From a virus, in IMG/VR virus record IMGVR_UViG_3300022602_000419, positions 1 through 24,194 of that record: a stretch of 24,194 bases of DNA, one strand, 5' to 3'. Positions 6,852 through 22,959 of the stretch are shown in pieces. How positions within the stretch are numbered: position 1 is the stretch's first letter; the number at the start of each line of letters is the position of its first letter. The position numbers were made by a program, and so were the translations under genes. The notes beneath the pieces were generated by a model that saw nothing but the letters and a program-made list of their open reading frames with translations, was not told where the DNA came from and ran no database searches.

Positions 6852-7222
6852 GCCAGTATATTTCTTTCTATTTCATCAGCAGGGGTTGGAGTAGCGGTTA
6901 TTCCTAGACTGCTAGTTTTAAATCTATTATAATTTAATATCTGTCCTACGATTCCACTTAACTCTACTCCGTCTAATTTTTTAAGAGTATCTAAGATCTG
7001 AAACGCATTAAGGTTAGTGGATTTAGCTTGGCTTAAAATAATCATCGCTACAGACTGTGCTGAGTCTTTATTAAAACCTTGGCTTTCAAAAAATCCAGTT
7101 ACGGCAATAAGATCAGTCCCATTTAATGAAACGGGATTTTGATAATAACTGTTAAAAAATTTCACAGTACTATTCGAACTTGATTGGACAGGTTGTTGAG
7201 GAACGTTGTTATATAATGTCAT
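6848..7222 (-). CDS. Small conserved phage protein of unknown function, 124 aa
   Basis: Function unknown. After a polar N-terminus of about 35 residues, the body is predicted helical: LIAVTGFFESQGFNKDSAQ, then VAMIILSQAKSTNLNAFQIL, then ILNYNRFKTSSLGI. I recall the ILNYNR-KTS-LG ending from small conserved proteins of marine T4-like phages. There is no signal peptide, membrane segment or metal site. Both ends overlap their neighbours by ATGA (7219-7222 with the tube-fold gene, 6848-6851 with gp4), so it is made in step with a tail protein and a head-completion protein. A small virion or assembly part is the likeliest role. Confidence 0.85.
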   Translation of the reverse strand: MTLYNNVPQQPVQSSSNSTVKFFNSYYQNPVSLNGTDLIAVTGFFESQGFNKDSAQSVAMIILSQAKSTNLNAFQILDTLKKLDGVELSGIVGQILNYNRFKTSSLGITATPTPADEIERNILA

Positions 7223-8466
7223 TTTGAATTAAATGCTTTAGCAAAATTACTGCCACTAACATTTGCGTTAGCAGTTGCAGGACTAAGTGGTCCAAAGTTT
7301 TGTAAGAAATTTTGACCCGCTGTAGGACCTGCAGGCACATTCGTAGTTCCTGCATTAACACCAGTGCCTGCACCAGATTGGACAGCTACTGCACCTGATT
7401 CAGCGACAGGATTGGGATTAAAAATCTGAACGCCATTTAGATTACCATTGCTAAACACGGTACCATTACCCTGTGCCGCACTAGTAACCTGTCCAAGCCC
7501 TACTCCTACTAATTCATTGAGAGATGCTTTTTTATTTAGACTACTGATGTTCTTAACTAGGTTAGCAGTTTGTATAGCTACCTTGGCATAATCCCAAGGA
7601 CTCTGTGCATTGGCTATGCTACCATTCTCGCCAAATATAGCGGCACCGCCTGCTACTACACCACCCGGACCAAACAGATTGCTAGCACCACCGCCTGCGA
7701 TACTTAATGGGCTAGGTGTACTATCATAATGATTTTTATTATATCCTATCGGTCCTGCGTTTCCTGAATTATAAAACACTCCTTCGTAATTTACTGTCAT
7801 CCTACTATGGAGCATCTTATTGCCTTGTGTCTGATCAAGGTCATCGTGTCTCCATTCTTTAATGATAGGATTTACTAGAGTATAACTTAAAAATTTCTGT
7901 TTGTTTAAGGTAAAGATAGTTATATCTTTGAAGAAAGGAGCATCGGCACCTTTGGCCAATCCGTAGAGATAAGATTGCTTGGCTGGAGCCTGTTTATATT
8001 TTACATCGCCGAATGCCGCTACTGCAGAAGATGTTTTTCCATTGGCATTGTTACTATAATCTCCATCAGCAAAATAGTAGCCATAATACTGTCTCCATAA
8101 CCCGGTTGTAGCATTGGCCATATCGTCATGGAACGTTATAGTAATAGGATCATAATTGAGAGTCTTTTGTATGACAGTTTTTCTATTGTATTGGTTTAAT
8201 ACTTCAGTTTCAATATTAAATTGTGGCAAGTCGGAAGATTTAGCCAGTAAACCTATTACGTTATTTTTAGCATATCTAGTATACCATGTTGGCTCGAGAT
8301 ATTTCGCTATGTCAGGATTTATGTTTAGCTGTACGTAATATAACCACCCTGCTTTAGGGGCTAGATCATAAAGATTATCGGCCCTATATAATCTGCTAGC
8401 GTGTTGTTGATCTCTTAACCATCCCTGAGAAAGGATGTTAGAAAGAAAAGAGGATAAATTACTCAT
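7219..8466 (-). CDS. Tail-tube-fold structural protein, possibly gp54-like tube initiator
   Basis: The 415-residue protein shows the strand pattern of the T4 gp19/gp54 tube fold. SSDLPQFNIETEVLNQYNRK resembles the strand that lists onto the neighbouring subunit. TLNYDPITITFHDDM resembles the gp54 'dPlvISFrmD' strand, and MTVNYEGVFYN the closing strand. The first about 60 residues (SQGWLRDQQHASRLYRADN) are helical and polar. From about residue 285 the chain is low complexity, rich in Ala, Gly, Asn and Val, as in C-terminal ends of baseplate tube proteins. It lies directly downstream of gp19 but behind a terminator and with its own CATAAATA octamer 5 bases before the ATG. It could be the baseplate tube initiator gp54 or a second tube-like subunit. 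The fold is inferred from motif similarity only. Confidence 0.6.
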   Translation of the reverse strand: MSNLSSFLSNILSQGWLRDQQHASRLYRADNLYDLAPKAGWLYYVQLNINPDIAKYLEPTWYTRYAKNNVIGLLAKSSDLPQFNIETEVLNQYNRKTVIQKTLNYDPITITFHDDMANATTGLWRQYYGYYFADGDYSNNANGKTSSAVAAFGDVKYKQAPAKQSYLYGLAKGADAPFFKDITIFTLNKQKFLSYTLVNPIIKEWRHDDLDQTQGNKMLHSRMTVNYEGVFYNSGNAGPIGYNKNHYDSTPSPLSIAGGGASNLFGPGGVVAGGAAIFGENGSIANAQSPWDYAKVAIQTANLVKNISSLNKKASLNELVGVGLGQVTSAAQGNGTVFSNGNLNGVQIFNPNPVAESGAVAVQSGAGTGVNAGTTNVPAGPTAGQNFLQNFGPLSPATANANVSGSNFAKAFNSK

Positions 8467-8521: not shown

Positions 8522-9151
8522 TTAGCTAGTAGCTAATGTTCCTAATGTTCTGGCAACCGCAGTACCGATACCAGTATCGTTACCTGCACTGTCAGTTTGT
8601 AGTGCGTTATCAAATTTCAGTGTCAATGTTACATCCATTGGCTCGCTTGATTTGTAATCGCCCTGTTGATAGTCTGCTTTTTGTACATAACAACCGTAAC
8701 ATTCAAATGTTTCAAGAACGGCCGGTGCATTTGCTCCGTTTCCTCCGTCTAAAATATCAATGTTTGTCTGGAATTTATAATCACTACCAGATGCCGCACT
8801 AGATTGTTCAAAGAAATCAAACTGCTTCTGTATCTGTTGACCAACTAATTGCGTAATGTTATTGCTAACGTCATCACGTAGGACGATCTGTAATTCTGCC
8901 CATGTGTATTTTCCAGCATAATTGATTTTACTGTTATAGACATTTAATTCTATATTTTCGAAACTAACACTTGGACGTCCGCAAGTTACAACCTGCTTGG
9001 TCAATTCAAATGTACTGTTATTTGCTCCGAATCCAATAAAAGTTACTCTGAAACGATATTTCAGTTTGGGCATTAGTAGGCCCTGGCTCGTAGAGCTTTG
9101 ACCACCTCCGCTCAACGGTACTGAATAATTTAATAAACTAGATATTGCCAT
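8522..9151 (-). CDS. gp19: Tail tube protein, gp19-like
   Basis: This is the subunit of the inner tube through which DNA passes after the sheath contracts. The 209 residues are somewhat longer than T4 gp19 (163). The family pattern is clear: KLKYRFRVTFIGFG near residue 30, ELTKQVVTCGRPSVSFENI, the NVYNSKINYAGKYTWAELQI strand with VLRDDVSNNI after it, FDFFEQ, ETFECYGCYVQKADYQQGDY and the final MDVTLTLKFDNAL strand. The N-terminal about 25 residues are Ser/Gly-rich. The ATG has a good AAGGAG site and a GGTAAATA octamer 22 bases upstream, lying over the gp18 stop codon. The gene is expressed with gp18 or alone and is closed by the terminator at 8484-8506. Confidence 0.95.
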   Translation of the reverse strand: MAISSLLNYSVPLSGGGQSSTSQGLLMPKLKYRFRVTFIGFGANNSTFELTKQVVTCGRPSVSFENIELNVYNSKINYAGKYTWAELQIVLRDDVSNNITQLVGQQIQKQFDFFEQSSAASGSDYKFQTNIDILDGGNGANAPAVLETFECYGCYVQKADYQQGDYKSSEPMDVTLTLKFDNALQTDSAGNDTGIGTAVARTLGTLATS

Positions 9152-9173: not shown

Positions 9174-9181
9174 TATTTACC
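9174..9181 (-). promoter_or_regulatory. Late-type promoter octamer GGTAAATA
   Basis: The minus strand reads GGTAAATA over the end of gp18, 22 bases before the gp19 ATG. The leader holds AAGGAG. The same octamer recurs before gp13 (14514) and before the fibre gene (20677). Confidence 0.45.
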
Positions 9182-12100
9182 CTGGGAATCCTGCCCCAAG
9201 ATTACCAGCGGCAATCGCACCTGTATTCAACAGTCTCATCGGTATATAAATGAATTCAACCGCTTTAACTGGTTCGATAGCGATATCTAACCACAACTCT
9301 GATCTGTCAATCCTTGCTGGAGTATTATTGCTGTCGTCACAGACTACAATGTAGTCATAGATAGCACGTTGTCCGACCAATTCGATGAATAGGCTTTCTG
9401 CGGCATTTGCTATGGCTTTACGTGTTGTACTATCATTTGGCTCAAACAAATATGGTTGAGCCAAAATACTTAATTGTCTACGTAGGTAAGCTACTAGACG
9501 TGCAACGTTAATTCTATCCAACGCACTAGCTGCCTGTGCTCTTGTATAGTTACCAAAGTTTACAAGTCCTACTCCACTTAATGTAGCAATTGGATTTACT
9601 TTAACACCGGCCAATACATCACGTAGGCTCTGTGGTAATGATGCTGTAATAAAATCGCCCGACTCATCTACGTAACCTACTGCTGTAGCATTAATAACAG
9701 GACCTCTATTGATACCAGCTGGTGCAAACCATTGATAGCTCTTTTGATCGCTCTCTGTAATAGTACGCAACATCATGTGACTGGGTGGAACAACAATATA
9801 GTTTCCTGTATTGTCATTGGTATAACCACTTGGATAGAACATAGCCATATAGTCGTCGTAACTTACTGCACCCAATTCGCCGTTGTCTGCGGCCAATGCT
9901 GTATTATTACCCCAGTTAGCTAATTGTGTACCATTTGGTTGTAAACGGAATGGACTGTCTCCAACTACGAATGCTGTGTAACCTCTATCAGCATTTAATT
10001 CAATCATATTTTGAATAGCTTCTGGATAACCAGGACATGCTATTAGATTGAATACTGTGTTGTCTTCATCTCTAGCTACTGTGTTAGTATCGATCGCTGA
10101 TTTTAATGCCTCAACAACGAATGCTCTCTGTGCATAACGACCAAACTGACCAACGCCTAGATGATCATTAGGAGTTACACATACCCAACGTGCTGGGTTA
10201 TAAGCAACTGTGTCGTTTGATCCATCCATTGGATCGTTTTGATAACGTGGATTGTATCCATTGTTTGAATAGATATCAATGTAGTTAGCTTCGTATTTCT
10301 TAACATTAAATCCTGAACGACGTAGATTCCATAGGCGTGTGCCTTCTGGATATAGTGCTGGATCTGGTGCATCTGGATCTAGATAATTGCTAGTCAGCAA
10401 CTCTTCGATAGTAGATGGTTCTGTAGCTTGTCCGCTAGTAGCCCAACGTGCATCATGGAATACCCAACCATTAGGTGTAACGTGATCTGTTACATCCTGT
10501 GCTACCCATGTTAGAGAATTGCCGTTATATACATATACACTTTGTCCGTATACATCAGTTGCAGAACTATCAACCCATATGTCGCCATCTACTAATGTTG
10601 TACCATCGCTCTGTGTCGTTGGTTGGCTGGCAGCGATTATAGGTCCATTTGGATCTGTGTCAGGGAATGCAGGAGTGACACCCTGTGCAGGATCGTTACC
10701 TGCATAATGATAGCCAACCCATGTAGTTCCGTTATGATATAAAATATCTACTTCTTCTAGATTAGACCCATACCATACTTTTCCATCCGCTGGAGTAGTA
10801 GTTGGCTCATGTGCTCTAGCTTCAAATACCAATGGCTTCCAGTTGCTAGCCAATACTGTATAGTCATCATACATACCTGCTTCGTAAAGATTAGCAGTCG
10901 GTGATAAACCAGTGGCAGTAAGTCCTAGATCAGCCAATACTGCGATAGATCCGCTATCTGTAATTTCAATATCACCGCCATTAGCGTGTGTAATTGATAG
11001 GTAACCATTTGAATTAATGCTTGCACTAACATATTGGAAACCTGCGGCACTAATAGCTGTTACGATACTAGCACCTGTAACTGTTGTGCTAGTAGTACCT
11101 GCACTAGGATTAATTGTAGCAATAGTGATCGTAGCTGTATTTTGTACGCTACTCATTCCAGGTACAGTTTCTGCTATAGTTAAAGAATATGTAGAAGTAC
11201 TACCAGATGCACCTCTGTGTATTGTTAATGAGCTAACATTAACTCCACCTGTAACTGTGGTAGGACTAACTGCGGCTCTTCTTAGTATTTTGAATTCTCC
11301 TAAGACGGGCATGCCGTCGGATCCATCACCGCCGTCATAATTACTTTCGATCATCAATGTACCTACAGCGATACCTGTACCGCCACCTGCTGGATCAAGT
11401 GCCGCGATACCTGCCATTGTAGAGCCATATATAGGAGCAGGAATTACACTCCATGTTTCTGTTGTTCCGCTATATAATTTAACTGACCAGTTAGCACCTA
11501 CGCTAGCCGCTGTAGTTTTTAGGTAAACACTACCGCTTGGTACACCGTGTGCCGCATATTTTGGAACTTGTGTATGAGGAGCGATAGTGATAGCTACGGG
11601 AACATATGTACCTGTAGTCAATCCTAAATTGTTAACAGCGTTACCTGAAACAGTGATCTTTCCGTCTGCTACTGAACCATTGCTAGCCGCTGTAGAATCG
11701 GCATATAATTCAATCAATCCACTCGAGTTAACTTTAGCACCTACTCCATATGTAGGCATCAATGCGTTAATAGTTGTAGCGATGTGGCTAGTTGATGTAT
11801 TACCAATAGTAACAGTTTGACCATTAATGCTGAGAGTAGAACCGCTAACTACATTTCCTAGGCCTGCACTTGTGATCACCGGATAACTTGTTACCCATGA
11901 ATTAGATTTAAATGTGCTACCTGAAATCGCAGTTCCGAATTGTGATTCAATATTAGAACCAACTTGTACCCAGTTATTACTTTCGTTTTTATACCATACT
12001 GCTCCGACATTGTCGCTAGTAACAACTACAGCATATGCACCGATAGTACCAAAACTTGGATTAGGTACATCCATTGTTGCGTCAACTGAAGCGTTATCAT

Positions 12101-12599
12101 CATTGATAATTAATGGAGATTGTAAAGTGAATACTTTGTTTACGCTATCCCACTCGTAGATACCATATTGTGTATTACCAGTATCTAACCAATATGTTCC
12201 ATTAACAGGTAATCCTGTAGGAACGCTTGATTGTGCTGTTAGTTCACTTAGATCAATGTCGGCACGTGCTACATATGCCTTGCTACTAACACCTAATAAA
12301 CTATATGCGGCTTGTAAACCATATTCGTTTTGTTCACCACCGTTGATACTGTTTCCTTGGCTATCTGTTGGAAATAATGGGGTACCAAATGTGTTGGCCA
12401 AATCTAATTGGCTTGTAATATTATATACAGTTCCTGCGTTTGCTGGGATCGTACCCACTGCTGTAACACCCGAGCTATTTGTTTTGTTTGCTGCCGATGC
12501 TACGAAAATCAGCGGTACTGTTCCTGGTGCTGCCGGTGTATAGAAACTTTCGTCTATTACACTTACGCTAACGCCGGGTGATTGTAGTGTTGTTGCCAT
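9177..12599 (-). CDS. gp18: Tail sheath protein, gp18-like, very large (1140 aa) with inserted modules
   Basis: This is the contractile sheath subunit. The N-terminus (SPGVSVSVID, then AADIDL-type strand at about 115) and the C-terminal region (about 705-1140) are typical sheath. The latter includes WVCVTPNDHLGVGQFGRY, NLIACPGYPEAIQNMIELNA, MMLRTITESDQKSYQWFAPA, INRGPV, VKVNPIATLSGVGLVNFGNY, the RINVARLVAYLRRQL helix, LFEPNDSTTRKAIANA and a final strand VKAVEFIYIPM. T4 gp18 has 659 residues; the surplus lies between about 128 and 705. There I see two flagellin-IN-like modules (about 246-336, SINGQTVTIGNTSTSHIATT; about 453-570, ending ADLGLTATG) and several short aromatic W-x-W modules (for example YWLDTGNTQYGIYEW, VWYKNESNNWVQVG, ILYHNGTTWVGY). 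An AGGAG site precedes the ATG, with a GCTAAATA octamer 32 bases up. Confidence 0.95.
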   Translation of the reverse strand: MATTLQSPGVSVSVIDESFYTPAAPGTVPLIFVASAANKTNSSGVTAVGTIPANAGTVYNITSQLDLANTFGTPLFPTDSQGNSINGGEQNEYGLQAAYSLLGVSSKAYVARADIDLSELTAQSSVPTGLPVNGTYWLDTGNTQYGIYEWDSVNKVFTLQSPLIINDDNASVDATMDVPNPSFGTIGAYAVVVTSDNVGAVWYKNESNNWVQVGSNIESQFGTAISGSTFKSNSWVTSYPVITSAGLGNVVSGSTLSINGQTVTIGNTSTSHIATTINALMPTYGVGAKVNSSGLIELYADSTAASNGSVADGKITVSGNAVNNLGLTTGTYVPVAITIAPHTQVPKYAAHGVPSGSVYLKTTAASVGANWSVKLYSGTTETWSVIPAPIYGSTMAGIAALDPAGGGTGIAVGTLMIESNYDGGDGSDGMPVLGEFKILRRAAVSPTTVTGGVNVSSLTIHRGASGSTSTYSLTIAETVPGMSSVQNTATITIATINPSAGTTSTTVTGASIVTAISAAGFQYVSASINSNGYLSITHANGGDIEITDSGSIAVLADLGLTATGLSPTANLYEAGMYDDYTVLASNWKPLVFEARAHEPTTTPADGKVWYGSNLEEVDILYHNGTTWVGYHYAGNDPAQGVTPAFPDTDPNGPIIAASQPTTQSDGTTLVDGDIWVDSSATDVYGQSVYVYNGNSLTWVAQDVTDHVTPNGWVFHDARWATSGQATEPSTIEELLTSNYLDPDAPDPALYPEGTRLWNLRRSGFNVKKYEANYIDIYSNNGYNPRYQNDPMDGSNDTVAYNPARWVCVTPNDHLGVGQFGRYAQRAFVVEALKSAIDTNTVARDEDNTVFNLIACPGYPEAIQNMIELNADRGYTAFVVGDSPFRLQPNGTQLANWGNNTALAADNGELGAVSYDDYMAMFYPSGYTNDNTGNYIVVPPSHMMLRTITESDQKSYQWFAPAGINRGPVINATAVGYVDESGDFITASLPQSLRDVLAGVKVNPIATLSGVGLVNFGNYTRAQAASALDRINVARLVAYLRRQLSILAQPYLFEPNDSTTRKAIANAAESLFIELVGQRAIYDYIVVCDDSNNTPARIDRSELWLDIAIEPVKAVEFIYIPMRLLNTGAIAAGNLGAGFPG

Positions 12600-12631
12600 T
12601 GTCTAATCTCCTAATTTGGATCACTTTGTTT

Positions 12632-15764: not shown

Positions 15765-17135
15765 ATGGCAGATTTTTTTTATGACGGGCAGGTAAGGAGA
15801 TTCTTAACACAGTTCATACGTGTTATGAGTAATTTTAGTTACAAAGATGGCAAGGGAAATCTCATACAAGTGCCTGTTCGTTACGGAGACATGAATCGAC
15901 AGGTCGCACAGATACTGAGCAAAAATACTGAAAATGTTATTCAAAGTGCTCCCTTTATAGCCTGTTATATCAAGGATCTACAGTTTGATAGAGAGCGTAT
16001 GCAAGATCCTTCGTTTGTTGAAAAGATACAGATACGAGAACGCGATACCAGTCCCGATGGTTCTACATACCTAAACACACAGGGCAGTAATTATACTGTA
16101 GAACGTATGATGCCTGTGCCATATAAAGCGACCTTTAATGCTGATGTTTGGGCTAGCAACACTGAACAAAAATTTCAATTATGGGAACAGATCGCTGTAT
16201 TGTTCAATCCTGCATTAGAAATACAAAATTCAGACAATTATCTAGATTGGACCAGTTTGAGTTATCTAGAATTAACAAGTATGACCTGGGAAAGCCGTAG
16301 TGTTCCGCAAGGCCTAGAAAGCGATATCAGTGTTCTTAGTATGAGTTTTTTGACTCCCTTATGGATTACACCTCCCGTTAAGGTAAAACAATTAGGAATC
16401 ATCACTAAGATTATTACCAATGTGTTCGCTGATCCAACTGGTACATTAGAATCAGCACCATACACTACTGATCTAGGATTAACAGATCTATTTGAAGGAC
16501 AACAACCTAGTGCTAGGATTATCGTCACACCGGGAGATTTTGATCTATTGGTGTTAGACAATACAGCGTCGTTAGTTCCTATTCCAAATACTCCTATATA
16601 CAATCAATTGACCAGTGTAAATCAGTCAACTGAAAAAGTGCAATGGCAACAATTATTAGATTTATATCCTGGATCATTTAAAGCAGGACTAAGCCAGATA
16701 CGATTAACGAAACCAGATGGTAATGAAATCGTAGCATATGCCAGCCTAAATCCTTTAAATGATTTTGCTATGGGGTTAAATTTCGATGTGGATACGATTC
16801 CTGCTAATACTATTTTAGATGGACGTGGCACGATTGACGCCATAGTCGATCCGCAGACATATAATCCAGGAACTATGTCTACAGGTAAGAGATTTTTAGT
16901 ATTAGAAGATGTTCCTGCTGATGCTGTTTCCTGGAATGGGTCTACAGCAAAAGCCAATGATATAGTACAATGGAATGGCACTGGTTGGGATACTGTATTC
17001 AATTCTGCTTCTGTTACTACATTAACCTATATAACTAATACATACACAGGCATTCAATATAAATGGGACGGCACGCAATGGAGTAAGTCGTTCGAAGGAT
17101 TATATGATAAGGGTGCTTGGCGTCTTGTATTATGA
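15765..17135 (+). CDS. gp15: Tail terminator / proximal sheath stabiliser, gp15-like
   Basis: gp15 caps the head-proximal end of the tube and sheath and lets tails join heads. The N-terminal 260 residues carry the family pattern: FFYDGQVRRFLTQFIRVMSN, VPVRYGDMNRQVAQIL, APFIACYIKDLQFDRERMQD, QIRERDTSPDG, YTVERMMPVPYKATFNADVW and FQLWEQIAVLFNPALEIQ. T4 gp15 has 272 residues; this protein has 456, with a C-terminal extension rich in aromatic turns (IVQWNGTGWDTVF, then YTGIQYKWDGTQWSKSFEGL), a form also seen in relatives of marine phages. AAAGG lies 6 bases before the ATG. The stop overlaps the next start as ATGA. Confidence 0.92.
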   Translation: MADFFYDGQVRRFLTQFIRVMSNFSYKDGKGNLIQVPVRYGDMNRQVAQILSKNTENVIQSAPFIACYIKDLQFDRERMQDPSFVEKIQIRERDTSPDGSTYLNTQGSNYTVERMMPVPYKATFNADVWASNTEQKFQLWEQIAVLFNPALEIQNSDNYLDWTSLSYLELTSMTWESRSVPQGLESDISVLSMSFLTPLWITPPVKVKQLGIITKIITNVFADPTGTLESAPYTTDLGLTDLFEGQQPSARIIVTPGDFDLLVLDNTASLVPIPNTPIYNQLTSVNQSTEKVQWQQLLDLYPGSFKAGLSQIRLTKPDGNEIVAYASLNPLNDFAMGLNFDVDTIPANTILDGRGTIDAIVDPQTYNPGTMSTGKRFLVLEDVPADAVSWNGSTAKANDIVQWNGTGWDTVFNSASVTTLTYITNTYTGIQYKWDGTQWSKSFEGLYDKGAWRLVL

Positions 17136-17956: not shown

Positions 17957-18594
17957 AAACTTTCAGCAAAGGCCATTAGGTTATCGTAAATTTGTACCTT
18001 AGATTTTAGCTGTTTGTATAAGTGATTTTCTAATTTTTCCTGTGTTTTCTTTCCATTACCAGTTAATACCAGTATTGGAGTAGCACCTGCTTTATCTGCC
18101 ATTAATAGATCATCTAGACTGTCACCTACATAGGCACCGCCTTTAATATCTAATCTAGGATCAGTTTCGATAGCACGATTGAACATACCTGTATTTGGTT
18201 TACCAAATGGATCATCTTTCTTATTTGATACATTATACCAAATACCGTCAATGCTTGTGCAACCTGCTTGTCCAAATAGATTCAACATATATTGATTTAC
18301 AGCATCAACATCTGTAGTTTTTAATTTATTTTGTGATATAGCAGGTTGATCAAATATGATAGCTAGTTTATGACCTTTGCTACGTATCGTAGCAATAGCT
18401 TTCATACTATCATCGATTGGTTTGAAATCACCAGCACCACTTATAACTTCAGCATTTTCACAGAGTACTCCGTCTCTATCTACCGCGATAAAGTATTTGT
18501 CAAAAACGCTAGGCATTTTAATAGGAGGAGATTCGGCAGATGGAGCACTGGTAGTTACCTGAGGTTGGATCTTTTTTACGTCAAATCTTCCCAT
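17953..18594 (-). CDS. HAD phosphatase, GmhB-like (heptose bisphosphate phosphatase family)
   Basis: GmhB removes the 7-phosphate of D-glycero-D-manno-heptose 1,7-bisphosphate on the way to ADP-heptose for LPS. Here FIAVDRDGVLCE gives the HAD nucleophile pair (Asp39, Asp41), FGKPNTGMFNRAI gives the Lys132 segment typical of GmhB and HisB-N enzymes, and YVGDSLDDLLMADKAG gives Asp158 and Asp161-162. The spacing and the LTGNGKKT ending fit GmhB. The zinc-binding cysteine loop of classical GmhB is missing, and IFDQPAIS replaces the usual NQSGI. The first 27-30 residues are a low-complexity extension, and an internal ATG (MPSVFDKY) is a possible alternative start. It overlaps the GT9 gene by one base (TAATG) and the APS-kinase-like gene by ATGA. 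Confidence 0.8.
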   Translation of the reverse strand: MGRFDVKKIQPQVTTSAPSAESPPIKMPSVFDKYFIAVDRDGVLCENAEVISGAGDFKPIDDSMKAIATIRSKGHKLAIIFDQPAISQNKLKTTDVDAVNQYMLNLFGQAGCTSIDGIWYNVSNKKDDPFGKPNTGMFNRAIETDPRLDIKGGAYVGDSLDDLLMADKAGATPILVLTGNGKKTQEKLENHLYKQLKSKVQIYDNLMAFAESL

Positions 18595-19529
18595 TATTTC
18601 ACCTTTGATTCTATGTCTGTTACTATCTTGTTGTACATGTCATCTAGTTCTTGATCAGTAAATGATGCTAGATTTTCATTTAGTCTGTCGACTAATCCCG
18701 CATCTAATCCCATGATGCGTATAGGACTATATTTTTTCTCGCCTGCTTTTTCGATAATTTGGAACCAATCGGGATAGCTGGTATTGATCGGGAATGTACT
18801 TCCAAATATCACAGTACCAGGTTTGTTTAATGCACGAGCCATATGTTGCCCCACGCTATCAACGCCGATAAAATAATCACTATATTCGATGATAGCGGCC
18901 CAATTACGAAGATCTGTAGGACTGGTTAACTTAGCGGTATAGGTATCAGCAGGTAGATTAAACTGCTGTTCTCCAAAAAAGATCAAATTGTAGTTGTCTG
19001 CCAATCTACTGACTAGTTTTATGTAGGCATCGGGTGAAAGGCTACGACAACCATAATCTACTATTTCTGAACGATCGAGTGCGGCACCTCTACCAAAAGG
19101 TTGTATCACGATAGTTTTGTCTTTTTTCTGTTGTGCTCTAATATCTGCTACTGTATTTGCCGCCCATTTTTCCTCATATAGGCTAAACTTCATGATAGGA
19201 ACGCCCAGATCGCTATGATCAGTAGTCTGATTTATCTCTCTATCAAACCCTTCAACTAGGCTGATTTTTTGATTGAAGTAATCCGGAAGCCTGTAGGGTT
19301 CTGGAGTTATATACCTATCGGCTTTGCTAGCTATATTTTGCCAAAGTCCTTTGGTGTCTATACCGTAAGTACGGTCTTGCAGTTCCGGAATACTCCAATA
19401 AAGTGCATCCCATGCTGGAATCAATACGTTCCAATCTGCATCAGGATTTAATCTATGGTATTTGAGCAATGCTGGCATGGCAGCGATCACACGGCCTGCT
19501 CCGCCGTCTATGTAAAAAATGGTTTTCAT
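18594..19529 (-). CDS. Glycosyltransferase family 9 (heptosyltransferase-like)
   Basis: GT9 enzymes move heptose from ADP-heptose to LPS cores. The 311-residue protein starts with a short strand and a GGAGRVIAAMPALLKYHRLN helix as in GT9. QPFGRGAALDRS (about 143-154) fits the nucleotide-sugar entry loop, SLSPDAYIKLVSRLADNYNL the next helix, and IFFGEQQ the following strand. DYFIGVDSVGQHMARALNKP and the next residues GTVIFGSTFP (218-246) are the hallmark 'D..iG.DSg..HlAaal..P...lFG.t.P' of GT9. The neighbour being GmhB-like makes a heptose substrate reasonable. A weak ribosome site (AAGAA) and a TATAAATT octamer 20 bases upstream precede the ATG. It may rebuild host LPS or decorate virion glycans. 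The donor sugar is unproven. Confidence 0.85.
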   Translation of the reverse strand: MKTIFYIDGGAGRVIAAMPALLKYHRLNPDADWNVLIPAWDALYWSIPELQDRTYGIDTKGLWQNIASKADRYITPEPYRLPDYFNQKISLVEGFDREINQTTDHSDLGVPIMKFSLYEEKWAANTVADIRAQQKKDKTIVIQPFGRGAALDRSEIVDYGCRSLSPDAYIKLVSRLADNYNLIFFGEQQFNLPADTYTAKLTSPTDLRNWAAIIEYSDYFIGVDSVGQHMARALNKPGTVIFGSTFPINTSYPDWFQIIEKAGEKKYSPIRIMGLDAGLVDRLNENLASFTDQELDDMYNKIVTDIESKVK

Positions 19530-21963: not shown

Positions 21964-22959
21964 TTAAGAGCAATAACAGCCTGATGATGTAAAAGTATGT
22001 ACCCAATAACAACAGGTAATTCCGTTACAAGAACAGGAATAGGCAGTTATCGTTCCGCCTGTTCCAATCGAGGCAGGTGCGGTATAAGATACTATAACTA
22101 TTCCCGATCCCCCGCAACCAGAGGGATTAGCCGCTAATCCGAAACTAGAAGCACCACCTCCACCACCTGTGTTTGTACACCCGGCAACACCCCCTGAAAG
22201 AGGATTACCTGGAAAACCGTAACCAGCACCACCGCCTCCTATACCTCCACCGCCACCGAGACTGGATGTGGGATTTCCTGTAGAACCAGCACCGCCACCT
22301 CCACCATAGTAGGTTGGAGTACCACTTATAGGACTAGCTATCCCCGGTCCCCCTTGTTGCCAAAAACCGGCCAGGGGATTGCAACCCCCGTCTTCGGGCG
22401 GGCCACCTGCACCACCTCCACCATTCATTCCTCTGTGACCTTGACCAGCTATTCCCATAAGATTATTGCATTGGCTTGTACCATTAATTCCCCCAACCCC
22501 TCCCCCAGACCCACCGTTAGCACCACAGGCACCAGAAGGGCCTAATCCGCGGCCTCCGCCGCATGCCACGATACCTGTGGGTCCGCCAAATGTGCTATTG
22601 GTTCCTGAAGTTCCAAGATATGCAGGGGCACCTGGCGAACCTGCACCGCCCCCTCCTACACATACAGCATAGCAACAGCCCGGAGACATGGGAATATTAC
22701 CTATTAACACTCCTCCAGCCCCGCCACCACCTCCGCTAACACCGTTAGCAGGGTTTCCTCCACCTCCACCTCCACCTGCTACTACCAAATAAGATAGGCA
22801 ATAGGTAACAGGGGAAGATATAGGAGCCGGAGTTCCTGGCCAACAACAGACTTCTGTCTGCTGTACAGCCGTAGCACCACTAAACATTCCTGATGCTTGG
22901 CCGTTGTTAATAATGGGGGGTACAGAGGAAATGATTCCTCCGGGAAATCTTTTAGCCAT
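21964..22959 (-). CDS. Cys-rich polyglycine adhesin-like protein, 331 aa
   Basis: The body from about residue 60 to 285 is built of Gly runs (YLVVAGGGGGGG, GGGGGAGG, GGGGGIGGGGAGYG), a pattern of phage glycine-rich tail proteins and the polyglycine-II receptor-binding tips of T-even gp38. LVVAGGGGG and the ending WVHTFTSSG are hallmarks of the phage glycine-rich domain family, where the last strand is usually followed by Thr/Phe residues. The unusual point is about 18 cysteines (VCCWPG, GCCYAVC, SCSCNGITCCYW, GCYCS), many at places where relatives have Ser or Thr. Probably a virion receptor-binding part. The start shares one base with the stop of the preceding gene (TAATG). Binding role is inferred from family. 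Confidence 0.8.
   Translation of the reverse strand: MAKRFPGGIISSVPPIINNGQASGMFSGATAVQQTEVCCWPGTPAPISSPVTYCLSYLVVAGGGGGGGNPANGVSGGGGGAGGVLIGNIPMSPGCCYAVCVGGGGAGSPGAPAYLGTSGTNSTFGGPTGIVACGGGRGLGPSGACGANGGSGGGVGGINGTSQCNNLMGIAGQGHRGMNGGGGAGGPPEDGGCNPLAGFWQQGGPGIASPISGTPTYYGGGGGAGSTGNPTSSLGGGGGIGGGGAGYGFPGNPLSGGVAGCTNTGGGGGASSFGLAANPSGCGGSGIVIVSYTAPASIGTGGTITAYSCSCNGITCCYWVHTFTSSGCYCS

Follow-up and report, generated by a model that had tools for sequence, protein, structure and literature searches.

Flagellin_IN modules in the tail sheath insertion of a jumbo-type phage

The sheath gene and its described relatives

Contractile tail sheaths with many domains are already known from jumbo phages. 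Evseev et al. (2022) modeled the 1086-residue sheath of Agrobacterium phage Atu_ph07 together with metagenomic sheaths, and ideas on adhesion and stability have been published for such proteins (PMC9230969). In solved as well as modeled sheaths, the extra domains are located away from the tube (PMC9230969). The sheath described here resembles the type 3 multi-domain sheaths of that report, which have large insertions away from the tube, at least five domains, and lengths of up to 1283 aa; the extra domains of type 3 sheaths are described as mainly Ig-like, and the main text names no IN motif (PMC9230969). We found no report in the open-access literature that describes a flagellin IN motif in a tail sheath, and the IN identity of the sheath modules appears to be unreported so far.

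T4 gp18 and the sheaths of the RaK2/121Q/PA5oct type have the same core, insertion site, and PF17482 domain as the present sheath. T4 gp18 differs in carrying domains I and II, with no IN match, and PA5oct, RaK2, and XacN1 show only borderline IN similarity, unlike the family studied here. Atu_ph07 and Sinorhizobium phage Phosso belong to the same sheath family (39% identity over 82–86% of the length) and, like the present sheath, have two IN modules each.

In the window, which is the whole stretch of 24,194 nucleotides of viral DNA that was analyzed, the sheath gene is a single open reading frame on the minus strand (9177–12599), running from an ATG at 12599 to a stop at 9177–9179 and comprising 1140 codons. 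AGGAGA, which read from the sequence resembles a ribosome-binding site, lies 7 bases upstream of the ATG (12607–12612, minus strand). The preliminary description had placed a sheath of 1140 aa at 9177–12599; both the coordinates and the length were correct, with the frame lying on the minus strand. A plus-strand reading of this interval contains 66 stops and was rejected.

The protein matched PF17482 at residues 1025–1122 (E=5.8e-14, 52.4 bits against a cut-off of 26.9), the tail sheath family phrog_10581 (E=1.1e-198), and, by phmmer, sheath sequences in the PDB; NCBIfam gave no match. An AlphaFold2 model made with 64 window and locus sequences had a mean pLDDT of 86.9 (a single-sequence model, at 31.7, was discarded), and its sheath core aligned with solved sheaths in VIA-align at Z up to 29.0, with an rmsd of 3.0 over 333 residues for the 9ev2 sheath. 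In searches with the whole model by Foldseek and VIA, the matches listed were all sheaths, with FliD not among them; the core dominates these searches, which have no bearing on the modules.

Two tube genes lie next to the sheath gene and a gp15-like (tail terminator) gene near it, as for a contractile tail sheath. A 209-aa tail tube protein (8522–9151, minus strand) matched phrog_4542 (E=4.4e-54), and a second, tail-tube-like protein of 415 aa (7219–8466, minus strand) matched phrog_13438 (E=9.6e-11) and phrog_4542 (E=1.1e-9), with PF06841 below the cut-off (E=0.0011); its tube match covers the first ~240 residues, and its C-terminal part is unexplained. The gp15-like tail sheath stabilizer (456 aa; 15765–17135, plus strand) matched PF16724 (E=4.1e-23) over residues 5–225, its C-terminal half being without a match. 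The gene at 9177–12599 encodes the sheath of a contractile tail, and its phage is of the jumbo type. Also near the phage structural genes is a match to glycosyltransferase family 9 (heptosyltransferase; 18594–19529, minus strand; E=2.2e-6), and a glycine-rich domain protein is encoded at 21964–22959 (minus strand; PF21722, E=3.2e-16).

The sheath had also been called oversized. This holds against T4 gp18, which has 659 aa; within its own clade and next to some modeled jumbo phages its size is ordinary. Among about 100 metagenomic relatives from IMG/VR, nearly all full-length sheaths have 1000–1280 aa. The named relatives are those of Atu_ph07 (1086 aa), Phosso (1091), Vibrio phage 2.275 (990), Salicola phage SCTP-2 (955), RaK2 (888), 121Q (887), PA5oct (879), and XacN1 (714).

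Flagellin_IN modules within the sheath insertion

The N-terminal sheath core (residues 1–113; 12261–12599, minus strand) and the C-terminal core (residues 751–1125; 9225–10349, minus strand), which includes PF17482, are conserved among 64 relatives, with mean pairwise identities of 66 and 61%, respectively. These two parts (about residues 24–113 and 751–1125) would carry out assembly and contraction, and the peripheral insertion of about 640 residues between them holds two repeated domain types, namely two Flagellin_IN modules and four short tryptophan-rich repeats (DGxxW ... NGxxW). The two types alternate along 10482–12236 of the minus strand. Repeat A (residues 122–168; 12096–12236) is followed by IN module 1 (residues 236–342; 11574–11894), which has its motif at 255–301 and ends in LGLTTGTY by residue 332, and by repeat B (residues 343–392; 11424–11573); then come IN module 2 (residues 443–586; 10842–11273), with its motif at about 485–548 and the ending LADLGLTATG, repeat C (residues 594–633; 10701–10820), and repeat D (residues 656–706; 10482–10634), all on the minus strand. 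By hhalign, the tryptophan-rich repeats matched one another at probabilities of 95.6% (A–C), 80.7% (B–D), and 78.8% (A–D), the A–B and C–D matches being weak, and they matched no Pfam family. We are highly confident of this anatomy of a core and an insertion with two Flagellin_IN modules, a confidence that concerns anatomy and not role.

The two modules had been proposed from short strings in the middle part of the protein, all of which are present: SINGQTVTIG, IATTINA, VNSSGLIELYADSTA, and NLGLTTGTY lie within residues 257–332, and LADLGLTATG lies at about 555–565. Profile searches, their controls, and the confident model bear out two modules of Flagellin_IN type in the middle insertion (residues ~250–333 and ~467–568). 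A Pfam search gave no IN match for the window protein, whether whole or as isolated module segments, and against our own profile, built separately from 30 Flagellin_IN motifs of bacterial genomes, the protein alone scored weakly at the two module positions (E=0.069 and 0.6). Because the window protein's own match is weak, the assignment rests on the sheath family.

Within that family, PF07196 was found above its curated cut-off of 22.7 bits, in two stretches each, in the metagenomic sheaths L018 (E=3.7e-7, 30.7 bits) and L021 (E=1.3e-5, 25.7 bits) and in Phosso (E=1.8e-6, 28.4 bits); in L007, L010, L011, and Atu_ph07 it was below the cut-off when whole proteins were searched. A six-frame scan of 74 whole related phage records (about 5.5 Mb) placed 38 of 41 PF07196 matches in the sheath gene. 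Two of the 38 belong to Atu_ph07 and Phosso; among the 36 from IMG/VR, the 35 that were mapped all fall at window residues 255–301 or 457–547. With the bacterial IN profile, 45 of 64 sheaths had matches at E≤0.01, in total 51 domains, of which 39 lie at module 1, 12 at module 2, and none elsewhere.

Profile-profile alignment to the bacterial IN profile gave a probability of 95.4% for module 1 (E=1.7e-8) and 90.0% for module 2 (E=1.6e-6), and when the sheath alignment was slid along the IN profile, the signal was restricted to residues 181–380 and 421–620. Modules 1 and 2 also matched each other (probability 97.5%, E=7.5e-12), indicating that they are paralogues. The I277-N278 pair is invariant in module 1 across 18 sheaths; the corresponding helix pair of module 2 is I-S in the window and I-N in L018 and L021. 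In the model, module 1 has strands at 255–258 and 261–264, a helix at 270–284, and strands at 286–290, 296–300, and 315–318, and module 2 has the same order of elements around a helix at 509–517 flanked by strand pairs. Both are thus predicted to have the strand-strand-helix-strand-strand order expected for IN.

In profile, I-N pair, order of elements, and closing LGL, the modules resemble the Flagellin_IN domain (PF07196) of FliD, flagellins, and hook-associated proteins. Unlike these, the window protein is a phage sheath lacking flagellin and FliD terminal domains, which gave no match in any of 18 sheaths. When single modules were searched against phages by tblastn, the Phosso module found only Atu_ph07 and Phosso, and the other modules found nothing convincing.

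Could the match to PF07196 reflect convergence, with a generic small beta-beta-alpha-beta-beta unit scoring on this profile without common descent from flagellar proteins? The motif is short (55 positions), the matches are modest (12–32 bits), and a search of the module profiles against PDB sequences gave nothing significant; for module 1, FliD came third, after two unrelated chains and with an E value of 9.2, a match that is not evidence. However, reversed or shuffled sheaths gave no match to the bacterial IN profile, other open reading frames (at least 100 aa) of the same phage loci gave none at E<0.01, and 20 column-shuffled versions and a reversed version of each module all remained under 1% in profile-profile alignment, against the 95 and 90% of the true modules. 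A further argument against convergence, which we consider improbable, is that the sheath modules share the I-N pair and the LGL ending with the IN motif. Even less credit is due to the view that the two stretches are ordinary Ig-like domains without IN similarity, which the preliminary description had named as the outcome that would overturn its reading. Most extra sheath domains were reported as Ig-like by Evseev et al., whose set includes Atu_ph07 (PMC9230969), but the model shows both stretches with a helix in the middle and a strand pair on either side, and several relatives match Flagellin_IN, so that an Ig-like identity is very improbable. On the evidence of the sheath family as a whole, both stretches belong to the Flagellin_IN family (PF07196).

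Loss, position, and divergence of the modules

A search of relatives for the presence or absence of each insert, as had been suggested, showed that module 1 is missing from one clade and module 2 is kept. Six sheaths (L093, L098, L105, L107, L110, and L128) lack module 1, with 13–18 residues joining the intact flanks, and module 2 is retained in all 64 aligned sheaths. In a core-only tree, the six form one group nested among module-bearing sheaths, and a single loss of module 1 is therefore the simplest reading. The arrangement in Atu_ph07 and Phosso differs from that in the window: their first IN module occupies another insertion point (residues ~185–270), their second aligns with window module 1, and window module 2 has no counterpart in the alignment.

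We compared the divergence of modules and core. Identity between relatives is 31–34% in the modules versus 61–66% in the core, and pooled dN/dS is 0.18 and 0.17 in the modules versus 0.08 in the core. The core diverges at about half the rate of the modules, which are still under purifying selection; with dN/dS well below 1, no positive selection was seen in the modules.

Two further features were observed among the relatives. In L024 and L026, IN module 1 is enlarged by ~165 residues containing GSGYTSIPTVSI-type repeats (sheath residues ~300–475), located between the post-helix strand and the closing strand of the module. A carbohydrate-binding domain, CBM_5_12 (PF02839), occurs in the sheaths of the subclade comprising L124, L126, L130, and L114 at residues ~769–806, close to where the C-terminal part begins, and is above the cut-off in L124 (E=1.4e-7); profile search found no CBM_5_12 in the window protein.

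Display and possible role of the modules

The preliminary description proposed that the sheath displays hundreds of these modules outward, which could hold onto host surface polymers or flagella. Outward display is supported by the position of the insertion, a part found at the periphery of known sheaths (PMC9230969); since the modules lie within it, we infer that such display is likely. The insertion is located between the N- and C-terminal core, in the same place as domains I and II of T4 gp18, and most likely faces outward, so that on the tail surface each subunit would present two IN modules. In the T4 sheath, each six-subunit ring accounts for about 4 nm. At this spacing, the 136-nm tail length of Atu_ph07 (PMC6102473) would correspond to about 200 subunits with about 400 IN modules.

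As to function, the IN modules may be swappable surface decoration whose contact with host surface polymers is weak and multivalent. A peripheral contact role is favored by the dispensability of the modules, their faster divergence, and the presence of a CBM in sister sheaths, and we tentatively regard weak multivalent adhesion to host surface polymers as the likeliest role, at not quite an even chance and ahead of bracing of the tail. With bracing, the modules would be structural: on the outer face of the sheath they would touch neighboring subunits or rings and stabilize a long, large tail, with no host contact. Purifying selection on both modules suggests a constrained role, module 2 is kept in every aligned sheath, and extra domains have been proposed as stabilizing for phage 812 and others (PMC9230969); the retention and the selection thus fit bracing too. 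The outright loss of module 1 in one group that kept the rest of the sheath does not fit it well, and the divergence of the modules, roughly twice that of the core, is unlike that of a conserved interface. Bracing is accordingly a possibility to be taken seriously, about which we have appreciable doubts. Nothing points to flagella as a target; that flagellins contain the domain as well does not show that the sheath binds them.

On a wider and more speculative reading, which we hold to be rather unlikely as a whole, the shaft of the jumbo tail, and not only its fibers, would be a multivalent adhesion surface that gains, loses, and exchanges small adhesive modules. These would include CBMs, tryptophan-rich repeats, and IN domains, the last being a domain that flagella show on the filament surface or cap. 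Both adhesion and stabilization had been proposed earlier as the function of the large extra domains in jumbo sheaths. The identification of two of them as Flagellin_IN modules, with module 1 present in some natural sheaths and missing from others and with the CBM of sister sheaths, turns the function of sheath domains into a concrete, testable question, and it connects the surface of the flagellum with that of an unrelated filament, the phage tail.
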